NCBI RefSeq assembly: GCF_007860105.1
Contig: NZ_SJPU01000003.1
Coordinates: 248,001-312,000, forward strand
Length of the DNA stretch: 64,000 nt
Origin: Allorhodopirellula heiligendammensis
GTDB lineage: Bacteria; Planctomycetota; Planctomycetia; Pirellulales; Pirellulaceae
Reading direction: 5' to 3'
Positions 49,193 through 53,995 of the stretch are shown piece after piece (position 1 is the stretch's first letter; each line of letters begins with the position of its first letter). A model generated the notes under the pieces. That model did not search any database. It was not told where the DNA came from and worked only from the letters and a program-made list of their open reading frames with translations. A program made the position numbers and the translations under genes.

Positions 49193-50029
49193 ATGAAAGA
49201 CTCCTCAGAGCAGGCGAACGCCCCCGATAGCTCGTTGTACTCGTCAACGTCTTCCCACAATCAACGCGCTGCAGACACGCCTGGTTCGTCAGGATTAGAC
49301 TTGCCCAGAATGGGCGCTGAAATTGGTTTTCAGGTAGTCAGTGAAGATGACGTGCCGCCATTCCGCGCCAGTGGCCTGATCTGCCTGGTGCTGGGTTTAC
49401 TCAGTGCCTCAGCATTGGTGGCTTGGCAAATGTTGATCCTGCCCCTGGCTGCAATTGCGTTCGGCGTTTTTGCGCTGCGAAAGTCAGACGGCCCGAAGCC
49501 CGCTGGGACGACTGCGGCTGTGATCGGCCTGGTGCTGGCCTCCTGTTTCGGTGCGGGGGGAATCACAATCCCTATGGCCAAACGCTCCACAATGGCAAGC
49601 CAAGCTGAGTATTTTGGCCGCGAATACCTCGAGTTAATCGGCAGAGGTGATGTGGAGCTGGCCGCTGAACTGCGCAAAGAGGCTCGCAATCGCCAGGTCA
49701 AAGGCATGAACCTTAGGGAAGCGTATCGAGCCGAGCAGATCGCAAGTGCGTCCAAGGGCGAAGAGGACCAGCACAGCAATGCGGAGCAGGACGCGATTGA
49801 GCTCGCCGGACCCGATATTCAGTGGGAATTGGCTGAGCGACCCCGGGTCTACATGCATTACGGCATCGAGCGGGTTGAGACGATCTGGTTCGATCCGAGT
49901 GGCACGGTCAAGGAGAAGGTGGTCGTGGAACTGCAATGGTCACCCGACGAGGCCAAAAACATTGCCAATTGGCATGTCAACAACTTCCACTTCTACCGCG
50001 ACCTCATTTTCGCCCCGTCCGTGCTCTAG
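49193..50029 (+). CDS. DUF4190-like membrane protein
   Basis: 278 residues. Residues 1-60 are polar. FRASGLICLVLGLLSASALVAW and PLAAIAFGVFALRKSDG are two membrane helices typical of DUF4190-like proteins, followed by GTTAAVIGLVLASCFGAGG. The C-terminal 150 residues are soluble: helical (EYLELIGRGDVELAAELRKE) then beta-rich (YMHYGIERVETIWFDPSG). It is 54 bp after lpxB, so it could be co-transcribed. The function is unknown. Confidence 0.8.
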   Translation: MKDSSEQANAPDSSLYSSTSSHNQRAADTPGSSGLDLPRMGAEIGFQVVSEDDVPPFRASGLICLVLGLLSASALVAWQMLILPLAAIAFGVFALRKSDGPKPAGTTAAVIGLVLASCFGAGGITIPMAKRSTMASQAEYFGREYLELIGRGDVELAAELRKEARNRQVKGMNLREAYRAEQIASASKGEEDQHSNAEQDAIELAGPDIQWELAERPRVYMHYGIERVETIWFDPSGTVKEKVVVELQWSPDEAKNIANWHVNNFHFYRDLIFAPSVL

Positions 50030-50200
50030 CCACGTCAGTTGAATTCGCTCGGTATCGGGGCGGATGGGTGTGCACAGCGAGAGTTTTGGCGTCTTCCACT
50101 ACCGCGAACCCTAATTCGTCGCTGTGCCAGAAGACGCAGCTCCATAGCGGTGGATGACAAACGGCCCTCCACCTCACCAGGCTCGCCCATCTCAACGAGC

Positions 50201-50371
50201 ACGGGCTGGACGACGCATTCCTACGTCGGCTACAGCAACGACACGACCTATGCCCTGAGCGTCACCGGCGACGTGATCGTCTCGCAAACGGACATGGCTT
50301 ACGACGATGCGGGAAACTCGATCCAAGCCACCACACGGCAGCGATACCACAATGCTTCGGCCGCCCAGACC
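50201..50371 (+). pseudogene. Truncated RHS/YD-repeat gene fragment
   Basis: In one frame the sequence translates to TTHSYVGYSNDTTYALSV, then GDVIVSQTDMAYDDAGNS and IQATTRQRYHNAS. YDDAGN-IQ-TTRQRYHNA is the characteristic RHS-repeat pattern of large planctomycete RHS proteins. There is no start, no N-terminal part and no continuation; it breaks into the GAGAAAGAGGGCCACCCAC repeat at 50376. This is a relic of a larger RHS gene. Confidence 0.7.
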
Positions 50372-50375
50372 GGAA

Positions 50376-50434
50376 GAGAAAGAGGGCCACCCACGAATGG
50401 CACAGTCATCTGAGTGAGAAAGAGGGCCACCCAC
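50376..50434. repeat. Two copies of a 19-bp motif
   Basis: GAGAAAGAGGGCCACCCAC occurs at 50376-50394 and again at 50416-50434, 40 bp apart. The second copy opens the 305-bp direct repeat A. The motif recurs at 51688 and in diverged form in the 37-bp tandem units. Confidence 0.85.
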
Positions 50435-50720
50435 TTTTCAGCTCGGGCTGCGGCTTGTTTGTCGGCCGATTTAACTACGATCTGGTCCTCGCAGAATGCC
50501 GCCACCGAGCATCGGGCCCATTCTGGTCCGATTTTCGAATATCGGCGCAGCAGCGACCCCGGATGGAGTGAAAACTGGGTTTTCCGAAGACGGTCAGGCC
50601 GAAGATATCCCGAGTGGGTTGTCACGGGCGCAGAGCCAACCTTGACCGCGACGGCTGGCTTCCTCGGCGAGGTGTTCTGGGCTACCCGCTGCTCGCATGA
50701 ACACCCGCCCAAATCGGCTC
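50416..50720. repeat. 305-bp direct repeat, copy A
   Basis: It matches 51688-51991 over its whole length with about ten substitutions and one 1-bp deletion, near 97% identity by eye. Its left end begins with GAGAAAGAGGGCCACCCAC. Its right end (from 50594) is the 3' part of the transposase gene. Confidence 0.92.
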
Positions 50721-51706
50721 ACGACGTCACACCAGGCATGGGTATCCACGCCCATACGTGTGAGGATCGGCTGTAAGTGCGAGGGGATCGCACCGACCTT
50801 GTCACTGCGGAGTTGACGGCCCGTCCAGTCGAGCAATTCCAGATAGCTCGCCAACGAGACACTTAGGAAACCTTTCAGGCTGCCTCGTCTGCCCGAATGA
50901 TCCAGGTGCGGTCCGACGGGATCGTGCTGCTCGTCAATTTCGATTGGACTCATCCAGCCACTGTGCTGGCGACCGCGGCTTCGCTCCCAGTCATGGGTGC
51001 TTAGGCGGGTCCGATCGGAGCTATGAGTCAAGTCGTCAATCCGATCCTTGGCTCCAGTGTACTTGCTCGATTCAGGCGTTTCCGCCATGGCGGCACGAAT
51101 CGGGTTGAGATCCACGTAGGCCGCACACGCCAACAAACTCGCTTCATCGAGGAGCACCTGTGCCCGAAAACGCCCTTCCCAAAAGTGGCCGCGAGCCTCG
51201 TCCTCGGCGTTACTGCGGCGGGCAATATTCTCAGCGAGACAGCGCATGTACCAACTCACGTCAGACAATCGCTGACGCCGTGAGGCCAGAACCTCCGGCT
51301 GATTCAGGATCATGTTCAGCTCCGGTCTCGTCGGCACGGCAGGGCTGCCGTCAGGGTTACGACGCGCGGGGAACAGCCGCAGCCAACGCTGGGCGACCTC
51401 CTCGTCCGACCACGCCGCGACAACGTCCGGGCGACTTCTGAAGACGAGGTGTAGGTGATTGCTCATGATCGAAAAAGTCAGGCAATCGATCGCGAACACG
51501 GAGGCGAGGAACTCCATTCGGTCGCGGATCCAGCCCCTGCGGTGCTCGAAACAATATCCAGTAGCGGGATCGGTCCCACAGAGCCACGCCTTGCGGACGC
51601 ACCTCTCGATACAGGGCCAGAAAGGGGGCCACCCACTTTCCAGCTCGCCAGGGCCAGAAAGGGGGCCACCCACTTTCCAGCTCGCCAGAGAAAGAGGGCC
51701 ACCCAC
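50594..51706 (-). CDS. Y1/REP-associated tyrosine transposase, N-terminus probably disrupted
   Basis: 370 residues if the open frame is used. The HUH motif is FSIMSNHLHLVFRSRPD at about residue 80-96. The catalytic Tyr lies in LLACAAYVDLNPIRAAM, with HFWEGRFRAQVLLDEA in between, all typical of IS200-like Y1 transposases (PF01797 type). The C-terminal 150 residues are an extension shared by planctomycete copies. The first 30 residues (MGGPLSLASWKVGGPL and on) are translated 37-bp tandem repeats that merge directly into ERCVRKAWLCG. The normal first strand (YHV-x-R) is missing, so activity is doubtful. Confidence 0.8.
   Translation of the reverse strand: MGGPLSLASWKVGGPLSGPGELESGWPPFWPCIERCVRKAWLCGTDPATGYCFEHRRGWIRDRMEFLASVFAIDCLTFSIMSNHLHLVFRSRPDVVAAWSDEEVAQRWLRLFPARRNPDGSPAVPTRPELNMILNQPEVLASRRQRLSDVSWYMRCLAENIARRSNAEDEARGHFWEGRFRAQVLLDEASLLACAAYVDLNPIRAAMAETPESSKYTGAKDRIDDLTHSSDRTRLSTHDWERSRGRQHSGWMSPIEIDEQHDPVGPHLDHSGRRGSLKGFLSVSLASYLELLDWTGRQLRSDKVGAIPSHLQPILTRMGVDTHAWCDVVSRFGRVFMRAAGSPEHLAEEASRRGQGWLCARDNPLGISSA
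51614..51687. repeat. 37-bp tandem repeat, two perfect units
   Basis: Units 51614-51650 and 51651-51687 are identical (GGGCCAGAAAGGGGGCCACC then CACTTTCCAGCTCGCCA). A third diverged unit starts at 51688 and opens repeat B. The unit is not a multiple of 3, so the translated N-terminus of the transposase reads it in shifting frames. Confidence 0.9.
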
Positions 51707-51991
51707 TTTTCAGCTCGGGCTGCGGCTTGTTTGTCGGCCGATTTAGCTACGATCGGGCCTCGCAAAATGCCGCCACCGAGCATCGGGCTCGTTCTGGTCC
51801 GATTTTCGAATATCGGCGCAGCAGCGACCCCGGATGGAGTGAAAACTGGGTTTTCCGAAGACGGTCAGGCCGAAGATATCCCGAGTGGGTTGTCACGGGC
51901 GCAGAGCCAACCTTGACCGCGACGGCCGGCTTCCTCGGCGAGGTGTTCTGGGCTACCCGCTGCTCGCTTGAACACCCGCCCAAATCGGCTC
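51688..51991. repeat. 305-bp direct repeat, copy B (304 bp)
   Basis: It is the second copy of 50416-50720, one base shorter. Differences include TTAGCTACG for TTAACTACG, CGGGCC for CTGGTCC and GCTTGA for GCATGA. Beyond 51991 the two flanks are unrelated. Confidence 0.92.
51865..51991 (-). pseudogene. Transposase 3' fragment inside repeat B
   Basis: Copy B repeats the end of the transposase gene: the same minus-strand frame codes AAGSPEHLAEEAGRRGQGW and ends NPLGISSA with stop TGA at 51865-51867. It stops at the repeat boundary, with no start or catalytic region. Confidence 0.75.
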
Positions 51992-52031
51992 GCTACATCG
52001 TTGGCACAGAGGCAACGATCGGGATTCGCCT

Positions 52032-52268
52032 TGGCTTACTTCGTGGCCGATGCGGAGACCTCCTCACTGGCTCCGCCGTGTCAACGCGTCCCGCTACAAT
52101 GAGGAGCTTGATGCCATCGAAATCGCGATCAAGCGTGGTTGCCCATACGGCTCCAAAGATTGGATTGAGCGGGCAGGTGGAAGAACGGGAACCCGGTCAA
52201 ACACGCGTCCGCGAGGTCGCCCTCGCAGCAAAGTACAGGTTAAGGCCGTTCAAAACGCGCCAAAATGA
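52032..52268 (+). pseudogene. C-terminal fragment of a second, different REP-associated transposase
   Basis: A plus-strand frame reads WLTSWPMRRPPHWLRRVN, then NEELDAIEIAIKRGCPYGSK, DWIERAG and RPRGRPRSK before a stop at 52268. The order WP-x-RP-x-WL-x-x-VN, E-LDAI--AI-RG-P-G---W and a terminal RPRGRP-K tail is the standard C-terminus of REP-associated tyrosine transposases. The HUH and Tyr regions are absent, and it is on the opposite strand to the intact copy. The ATG at 52050 is in frame but unlikely to be functional. Confidence 0.7.
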
Positions 52269-53086
52269 ACCCCTTCTATTTTCTCCGTCCCAAGCAGAAT
52301 GGGAACGTCCAGATAATGATATCTTTCCGCTTCCTGGCCGGCACCGCTTTTATAGCTAGCTATCTCGGTTTGCGTCTGTTTGCGTCATCCATAGTCGACC
52401 AGCGTGTTCTTTGGATTGTCGCCCCCGTTTTGTCATCCACTTTTTTTGCCGTCATCGCCGCGTTTGGGAAGCAGAGCTACATGCGTGTACTCTTCGCGGC
52501 CAGCTTCGGTGCGTTTGCTCCGTTGATCATGTGGAGCATCGAGATATCGCTTGAGTCTGAATTCGCAAGCGAGTTTTGGCAACCGACAGATTTGGCGACT
52601 CTGCTCCTCTGGACTCTTGCAGTAGGTGGAACGGTTGCCGTTTGGGGGGGGCTCGTAGGTGGCTTAGTACGGTTTGCAATTGACGGTCGCGTGTCCATTA
52701 CTGTTCGGCGATACTGCCTTTCTATTGCAATCATCGTTTTTGCAGGCCTCACGTTCTTCGCGTTTGAGCGTTGGAACGATCCGGCATTCCGGTATCGACA
52801 ACTTGGAGACGAGAACTCGTTACGTCCCGCAATTAGGCGGTACATTGACAACGGCGACTCACTGACTCACGTTCGCCAAACGCTTGGTCTAGGCGCTTTG
52901 GGTTCTCACACAAAAGGGCAGGCTTGGATTGACATGCAGATTCAAAACAAGAACCGTGACGGATTTGACGACGAATATCCGGACGGAATATTGCCCACAG
53001 ATCGATTCATCGCATATTCTGGATTTCCACGCCAATTTGTAATTCAATTCCGGGATGACCACGTAGTCAACCTGCCAGAAAAATAG
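52265..53086 (+). CDS. Membrane protein of unknown function
   Basis: 273 residues from ATG 52265, which overlaps the stop of the transposase fragment (ATGA); MISFRFLAGTAFIAS 17 residues later is an alternative start. There are about four membrane helices: FLAGTAFIASYLGLRLFAS, LWIVAPVLSSTFFAVIAAF, VLFAASFGAFAPLIMW and LLLWTLAVGGTVAVWGGLVG, then YCLSIAIIVFAGLTFFAF. The C-terminal 90 residues are soluble and end in FVIQFRDDHVVNLPEK. No family was recognised. GC content looks lower than its neighbours. It may be part of the accessory island. Confidence 0.7.
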   Translation: MNPFYFLRPKQNGNVQIMISFRFLAGTAFIASYLGLRLFASSIVDQRVLWIVAPVLSSTFFAVIAAFGKQSYMRVLFAASFGAFAPLIMWSIEISLESEFASEFWQPTDLATLLLWTLAVGGTVAVWGGLVGGLVRFAIDGRVSITVRRYCLSIAIIVFAGLTFFAFERWNDPAFRYRQLGDENSLRPAIRRYIDNGDSLTHVRQTLGLGALGSHTKGQAWIDMQIQNKNRDGFDDEYPDGILPTDRFIAYSGFPRQFVIQFRDDHVVNLPEK

Positions 53087-53146
53087 GTAGATGCTCAATC
53101 AAGATGTCCACTTCCCCTTTTTGTCCATCTGCGCTGACACAGCTCC

Positions 53147-53995
53147 TCAGTCGCCGATGTGCAGCATGCGGGATTCGATGGGACCGGATCCGTGGCCATA
53201 CTGCGGGGCGAATTGAATCGCGTGGTTGACTGCCGCGATCCCAAATTCGACAGCGGCGCGCATGTTCGATTCGATCGGTTCGTGCGGCGATGCCAAAGCG
53301 AGCTGCGCGGCGATGGTTGCTGACAAGGAGCATCCCGCGCCATGAGTGTGTTTCGTGGCATGCCGCTCCACTGCGATTGTTAAGAGCTGTGCTGAGTCGA
53401 GGAAGGTATGCATCTGCTCACCATTGAGCTCGCCCGCCTTGAGCAAAACCATCGCAGGGCCCAGGTCGCGCAGATCCTCGGTGGCCTGGAGCAGGTCATC
53501 AATCTCGTTGCCGATTTCTCGTTCGAGCAAATGCTCTGCTTCGAAGCGGTTGGGAGTGAGCAAAGTTGCTCTTGGAAGCATGAGTTCCCGATAGGCATGA
53601 ATTGCTGCATCATCAATCAACGGCACGCCATGTTTGCTGATCATGACGGGGTCGACGACGACCGGACACTGGACGTGGCCAAGTTTGGCGGCGATTTCCG
53701 CGATGATCGACGCGTTACCCAATGCACCCGTTTTGATTGCGCGGGGCGTGATATCGCCAACCACCGCGTCAAACTGCTCGTTGACGAGATCCGCTGGGAG
53801 CAATTCGACGCGGTCGACGCCGCGCGTATTTTGGACCGTGATGAGCGTCACGACCGCCATGCCATAGACGCCGTTTTGCTGAAATGCTTTCAAATCGGCT
53901 TGCAGGCCCGCCCCACCGCTGGGGTCTGACCCGGCAATGGTCAACGCGACCGCCTCGGGAGCGATCGTAACGGCGCGATCTGGACTTTGTGACAT
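53147..53995 (-). CDS. thiD: Hydroxymethylpyrimidine/phosphomethylpyrimidine kinase
   Basis: Phosphorylates HMP and HMP-P for thiamine synthesis. 282 residues with a longer N-tail than usual. The ribokinase-like fold is clear: ALTIAGSDPSGGAGLQADLK at about 17-36, GVYGMAVVTLITVQNTRGV, VVVDPVMISKHGVPLID, TLLTPNRFEAEHLL and the anion hole THGAGCSLSATIAAQLA. The start ATG 53993-53995 shares one base with the histidine kinase stop (TGATG), so it is coupled to that gene. No TPP riboswitch or other thi gene is nearby. Confidence 0.95.
   Translation of the reverse strand: MSQSPDRAVTIAPEAVALTIAGSDPSGGAGLQADLKAFQQNGVYGMAVVTLITVQNTRGVDRVELLPADLVNEQFDAVVGDITPRAIKTGALGNASIIAEIAAKLGHVQCPVVVDPVMISKHGVPLIDDAAIHAYRELMLPRATLLTPNRFEAEHLLEREIGNEIDDLLQATEDLRDLGPAMVLLKAGELNGEQMHTFLDSAQLLTIAVERHATKHTHGAGCSLSATIAAQLALASPHEPIESNMRAAVEFGIAAVNHAIQFAPQYGHGSGPIESRMLHIGD

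Follow-up and report, generated by a model that had tools for sequence, protein, structure and literature searches.

The window, a 64,000-nucleotide stretch of the 7.18-Mb genome of Allorhodopirellula heiligendammensis (G000; contig NZ_SJPU01000003.1, positions 248,001 to 312,000), contains two damaged copies of an element built around a gene for a repetitive extragenic palindrome (REP)-associated tyrosine transposase (RAYT). They lie within a 3.1-kb stretch (50030-53146) between a gene ending at 50029 and a thiD-like gene. Very probably, a RAYT-type (HUH-Y1) element that moves as a unit inserted into the gap between these two genes and decayed there, as did other mobile pieces. A sequence-only reading of this DNA had described an accessory island of repeats and broken mobile genes, and, apart from the boundaries and the state of the transposase, the contents are as it described them; the stretch is, however, a nest made up of an RHS piece, a transposon tip, two RAYT copies, an accessory gene and the tail of another RAYT, and not one mobile island. 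The features of the locus are as follows.

49193..50029, plus strand: left flank gene with a weak DUF4190-like match below the Pfam cut-off; its stop codon is the left edge of the extra stretch
50030..53146, no strand: stretch absent from three relatives (flank comparison with G006, G008 and G003)
50198..50373, plus strand: RHS-type gene fragment (name from the sequence-only reading), ending where the first end-type repeat starts
50376..50394, plus strand: right-end (RE)-type repeat with the core GGGCCACCC at 50384
50395..50409, plus strand: 15-bp transposon tip GAATGGCACAGTCAT, inserted in the RE core
50416..51614, minus strand: copy A of the RAYT element, comprising a RAYT gene truncated at its 5' side, the 3' untranslated stretch and a right end whose core is at 50424-50432
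50594..51613, minus strand: RAYT coding remnant of copy A, residues 20-358 of a 358-residue sister, with stop codon
51612-51648 and 51649-51685, no strand: two identical 37-bp units, both made of an element right end and a little of the adjoining 3' stretch
51688..51999, minus strand: copy B, with right end, 3' stretch and the final 44 codons of the RAYT gene
~51990..52268, plus strand: 3' end of an unrelated RAYT gene, fused to copy B at the short similarity ATCGGCTC / TTCGGTTC
52265..53086, plus strand: accessory membrane-protein gene within the extra stretch
53147..53995, minus strand: right flank, thiD-like gene (name from the sequence-only reading), next to the left flank gene in G006, G008 and G003

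Contents and edges of the extra stretch

The long direct repeats (50416-50728 and 51688-51999), reported earlier as 305 bp and about 97% identical, are indeed two in number and 96.8% identical, and span 312 columns. A 313-bp direct repeat of 96% identity lies far beyond chance, and judged by sequence the repeats are the terminal parts of the RAYT element. Copy A has a sister, copy C (G000:C1:2065677-2066880), which is full-length, with 358 residues, a normal start and a left end, and matches copy A at 96.5% identity over 1205 bp. Compared with copy C, copy A is missing the left end and residues 1-19 of the 358, and what looks like its start comes from the 37-bp repeats, so that the transposase is not the 'near-intact' gene first proposed; the remnant retains the HUH (NHLH) and YVDLNP motifs. 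The duplication had been called recent, which holds only in a relative sense: over the same 312 columns, A and B share 96.8% identity, A and C 92.3%, and B and C 91.3%. The genome-wide copy count that had been suggested found one more copy of the A-like 1.2-kb unit and, for the 3'-end repeat, one further truncated copy (G000:C6:215-634) and nine intact relatives at 71-73% identity.

Several other parts stood as first described. The 37-bp tandem units are present as two exact copies, and single related units lie near 50376, 50410 and 51682. The second, truncated transposase 3' end is copy B, and the tail of a different RAYT matches a full-length gene in G006 at 87.5% over 296 bp (51981-52276). 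The RHS fragment is 85-88% identical to three other genomic places, where the copies run on past the break.

The 15-bp tip is an addition to that earlier list. A complete-looking element with GAATGGCACAGTCAT at both ends lies within an RE core at G000:C3:899441-901093 (L109:942-2594) and encodes a DDE_Tnp_1 protein; we take it to be IS4-like. GGGCCACCCAC flanks it left and right, as a target duplication would. The tip occupies the same core point in the window and at this second place, and the RAYT right-end core may be the preferred target of the DDE_Tnp_1 element. Also near a right-end core, at L025:1359-1391 (G000:C3 near 899300), lies a sequence that may resemble a CRISPR repeat; no repeat array was found in L109.

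The edges were set by a detailed flank comparison with Rhodopirellula solitaria CA85 (G006; current NCBI name Allorhodopirellula solitaria, Pirellulaceae), G008 and G003. The stop codons of the two flanking genes overlap in CTAG in G006, and the genes are less than 100 bp apart in G008 and G003. Because the flanking genes adjoin in these three relatives, 50030-53146 is additional in the window's lineage, and with three empty sites an insertion is more economical than repeated loss. The empty sites also correct the extent first given (2.2 kb, 50030-52268) and place the membrane-protein gene, previously counted as an ordinary neighbour, inside the extra stretch. This gene has no Pfam or NCBIfam family, and its protein is matched in 2 of 13 genus genomes, the source genome counted. 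The empty-site comparison, itself proposed by the sequence-only reading, is thus clear in three relatives and not clean elsewhere in the genus. In a genus-wide search, the top hits for the left and right flanking genes fell on separate contigs in G012 and in G010; in G001 they share a contig but lie about 430 kb from each other, and one of them is short and weak; in the other genus genomes, one or both matches are absent or very short. Since the matches are split, distant, missing or very short, the flanking pair is either not conserved or not detectable across the genus.

The RAYT element as a mobile unit

A search of the source genome gave 25 matches, several smaller fragments among them. 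The genome holds eleven long copies, copy A counted. Nine further intact genes share 70-73% DNA identity with A and 80-96% with one another, and in a tree they group with one copy from G006, while A and C are sisters. The element measures approximately 1.35-1.4 kb; a single gene of some 358 codons lies between a left end, whose core reads GGGACAGGC or GGGCCACCC and is about 100 bp upstream of the gene, and a right end. All ten full-length copies of this genome (C counted) have the left core GGGACAGGC 97-115 bp before the start codon, and nine of the ten have the right core GGG[TC]GGCCC 162-186 bp past the stop codon; without C, the left core is in place in 9/9 and the right core in 8/9. No single interrupted gene was seen in the sequence on both sides of copy C.

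Copies of 1348-1365 bp with 96-97% identity are found in G002 (two copies), G005 and G009. In these genomes the left-end core lies about 80 bp upstream of the gene. The element stops 7-8 nt beyond the core at either end, and the flanks that follow are unrelated. GGGGCCACCC stands at both element ends in the three genomes, and the terminal inverted repeats are imperfect in the window's genome. For the G005 copy, an empty-site comparison with G007 ended where the G007 contig stops, 41 bp beyond the flank.

Full-length members with at least 71% protein identity occur in 6 of 13 genus genomes. At E <= 1e-85 the source genome was the sole match among 392 sampled genomes of the phylum, and the scan of another collection added one Planctomycetota metagenome-assembled genome and a few other genomes. 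At E <= 1e-60, matches were present in 70 of 293 genomes of the order to which a Pseudoteredinibacter genome belongs. Element ends are seen in both Planctomycetota and Gammaproteobacteria. Catenovulum adriaticum carries three copies with common ends on one plasmid, with the left core AAGACAGGC, and on the same plasmid a derivative of about 142 bp that resembles a miniature inverted-repeat transposable element (L130, 479-620 reverse complement) and joins the left end (25 bp) to the right end (120 bp). Two internal-deletion derivatives are present in G006, one of them with an altered left core. Near-identical copies between unrelated flanks across species, together with related, same-ended copies dispersed in one genome, argue that the RAYT element moves as a unit. 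As far as sequence can tell, discrete ends, cross-species copies and deletion derivatives are the marks of a mobile element, not of a settled gene.

Whole and partial RAYT copies also occur in clusters (L104, L096 and L101, in G008, G002 and the small contig C21 of the source genome). In a Pseudoteredinibacter genome, a 45-nt direct repeat of 98% identity (L135:1149-1193 and 2928-2972) lies on both sides of a RAYT element and is long for a target duplication.

Exact matches to three patterns of the repeat core numbered 6, 16 and 14 in the source genome, the 16 and 14 being for exact 13-mers; these patterns leave variant cores uncounted. For two of the patterns, 5/6 and 13/16 of the exact cores lie at RAYT copies or fragments, eight of the 13 in one cluster. 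With so few exact cores, a large dispersed REP population was rejected for this genome.

Alignment of seven proteins shows H72, H74 and YVDLNP to be invariant and a WE motif in six, with FE in L114. Most planctomycete members examined carry NHLH or NHIH, while NHYH occurs in Catenovulum and L120, and other middle residues elsewhere. The window transposase gave only a sub-threshold Y1_Tnp match in Pfam, and its sole NCBIfam match was the REP-associated tyrosine transposase, also below cut-off. The top Foldseek matches of a predicted structure were the transposases of ISDra2 and Sulfolobus tokodaii and the REP-bound RAYT (4er8), with probability ~1.0 and E 0.007-0.025. Together with the motifs, these matches assign a predicted Y1 HUH fold from a model of modest confidence. 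Sequence similarity to a solved structure was rejected, the one match being unrelated (E 0.09), as was a phage family, no PHROG match being found for the window protein. Strong DNA hairpins at the ends were likewise rejected because of weak folding z-scores.

Partial tandem copies at the element ends

Partial copies of the element were scored as tandem when unit and match reached at least 80 bp at 80% identity or more, with a gap of at most 20. By this rule, tandem partial copies were found at 9 of 39 family loci and in 2 of 114 control tiles (Fisher p = 8e-5). The 39 were drawn from 46 scanned loci by excluding L041 (internal stop), L119 and L125, as well as L115, L116, L117 and L120, each of which cuts again a place counted under another locus; a single G002 cluster is covered in part by both L038 and L049. 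The control comprised 100 tiles from twenty 20-kb stretches of the source genome and 14 of the 16 window tiles. A fresh set of 29 new loci, taken from the matches of the E <= 1e-60 search, gave 4/29 against 4/100 gammaproteobacterial tiles, all four control hits coming from one 20-kb stretch (L207). Pooled over the two phyla, the counts are 13 of 68 family loci and 6 of 214 control tiles (one-sided p = 3e-5).

Judged by eye, with variant cores accepted, 12 of the 13 junctions combine a breakpoint that lies 7-12 nt beyond a left or right core with another inside the element; the remaining one, L062, is unclear. The tandem copies lie at the right end in L008, L009, G008, L143, L177 and L194, and at the left end in G002, Catenovulum L132, L135, L140, L178 and L185. 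No constant tetranucleotide was seen by eye before the internal breakpoints.

Ends of this kind are cut as single strands by HUH-Y1 enzymes. The RAYT element would move by the single-stranded cut-and-join chemistry of HUH-Y1 transposases, and a cut end would sometimes be linked to a site within the element, leaving partial copies stacked in tandem at the ends. In the window, the 37-bp units and copy A look like such end-anchored tandem partial copies: copy A is joined 11-14 nt after a right core, with CTG common to both sides, and end-to-internal joining would have produced both the units and the shortened start of this copy. Copy B was probably shortened by a deletion that fused it to the second RAYT. 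The broader proposal, that a widespread RAYT branch is mobile as a unit and not domesticated, and that its transposase makes end-anchored partial tandem copies, some of them little more than an end, is advanced tentatively.

A number of observations count against this account of the stretch and its element. Transposition itself was not observed, and the element ends were seen to have neither a target-site duplication nor a constant target. The copy L005 has no right core at the usual place, the next one being 517 bp off, behind a fragment. The fresh tandem set alone falls below significance against its own control (one-sided p = 0.075). A strict motif test, with the motif written after the junctions had been seen, places 8 of 13 junctions beside a core (0.18 expected). 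The island in the window fails the tandem rule, and its junctions are blurred by the 37-bp units, the common CTG and later deletion. For a model with a mean predicted local distance difference test score of 60.9, the best Foldseek match had an E-value of 0.007 and none reached 0.001, and the end hairpins are weak (z of -2.1 to +0.1 for six typed ends, -1.1 to -2.0 for the window units). Adjacency of the flanking genes was not seen in most other genus genomes.

A serious rival to end joining is slippage without an enzyme: the tandem partial copies would arise by replication slippage or short-repeat recombination, with the transposase uninvolved and the repetitive non-coding ends merely prone to it. 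This account, which we regard as possible though short of probable, draws on the short sequences common to both sides of some junctions (CTG at window copy A, GA at Catenovulum L132 and perhaps CGTC at L009), on selection against within-gene duplications while the gene is intact, and on the p-value of the fresh set by itself. Against it, the L008 junction has no common bases, and in 12 of the 13 junctions, read by eye, the fixed breakpoint is 7-12 nt outside the core. The G002 breakpoint, moreover, falls within about 1 nt of the element end that was found independently by cross-species comparison.

Domestication of the RAYT with its REPs, followed by vertical descent, would make the copies old gene duplications. 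It agrees with the sole, sub-threshold NCBIfam match and with the description of RAYTs as single-copy, domesticated and vertically inherited, as given in the part of PMC8049555 drawn on here. Eleven long copies in one genome, units of 96-97% identity with unrelated flanks in three species, the patchy presence in the 1/392 and 70/293 genomes given above, and the scarcity of exact repeat cores make this explanation very unlikely. Arrival of the island in one step as a composite mobile block is slightly less likely still: all parts do lie within one 3.1-kb stretch missing from three relatives, but no shared ends were found to enclose the stretch, and the parts have relatives at separate other places.

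Known systems and meaning

By sequence, the HuH motif and the Y-x-x-x-N-P catalytic motif of RAYT (TnpA-REP, class 2 TnpA-Y1) are present in this family. Judged by motifs and length, the element most resembles subclass 2.3 of Quentin et al. 2018 (PMC6006769), with YVDLNP, WE, several copies per genome, gammaproteobacterial relatives and a long protein (358 residues here, against a median of 325 in the subclass). The subclass is also characterised by NHYH and by extra segments in its long protein. In the portion of that paper used here, subclass 2.3 has many copies on short branches, suggesting recent spread, and is reported without flanking structures, and mobility of RAYTs is not demonstrated. 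The present element differs, on the same portion, in its defined ends, its copies of 96-97% identity across species and its mostly NHLH or NHIH motif in place of NHYH.

The element also shares with the TIRtron/TIRYT arrangement a RAYT-like gene between terminal inverted repeats (TIRs), and its left core GGGACAGG is near the TIR motif GGGGWSAS (PMC3733652); the right-end core GGGCCACCC falls outside this motif. Within the excerpts of PMC3733652 and PMC6006769 considered, Di Nocera et al. 2013 described TIR-flanked RAYT-like genes and named R. baltica for its abundance of tyrosine transposase genes and of repeats that flank them, and Quentin et al. placed 20 of 26 TIRtron/TIRYT examples in subclass 2.1. 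Movement as a unit and end-anchored partial copies were not found described in the former excerpts.

Members of the IS200/IS605 group (ISDra2, IS608) have the HUH-Y1 transposase fold that is predicted here. The present family is set apart from them by YVDLNP instead of Y-x-x-x-Q, a much longer protein, the absence of a second gene between the ends and the weak end hairpins, and it does not show the DH[VI]H and Y[IV]ENQ motifs of class 1.1. Unlike a classical REPtron, it has no constant GTAG/GTGG tag at its ends, folds weakly and is not accompanied by a large dispersed REP population.

The island in the window is thus an ordinary decayed nest, and, as far as the consulted parts of the literature go, the presence of many RAYTs in this group of bacteria is already known. 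What is new, within the literature covered, are defined ends for a RAYT branch, cross-species movement as a unit and end-anchored partial copies; a literature search turned up no description of subclass 2.3 ends or of tandem copies anchored at an end, although such a paper may exist. The domesticated bacterial transposase is commonly exemplified by RAYTs, and the origin of REP arrays is open. If the proposal is true, a mobile RAYT branch would offer a direct route from a transposon end to REP-like arrays. A branch with clear ends, recent interspecies spread and frozen intermediates, from the whole element to bare end repeats, would make both domestication and the origin of REP arrays testable in the laboratory.
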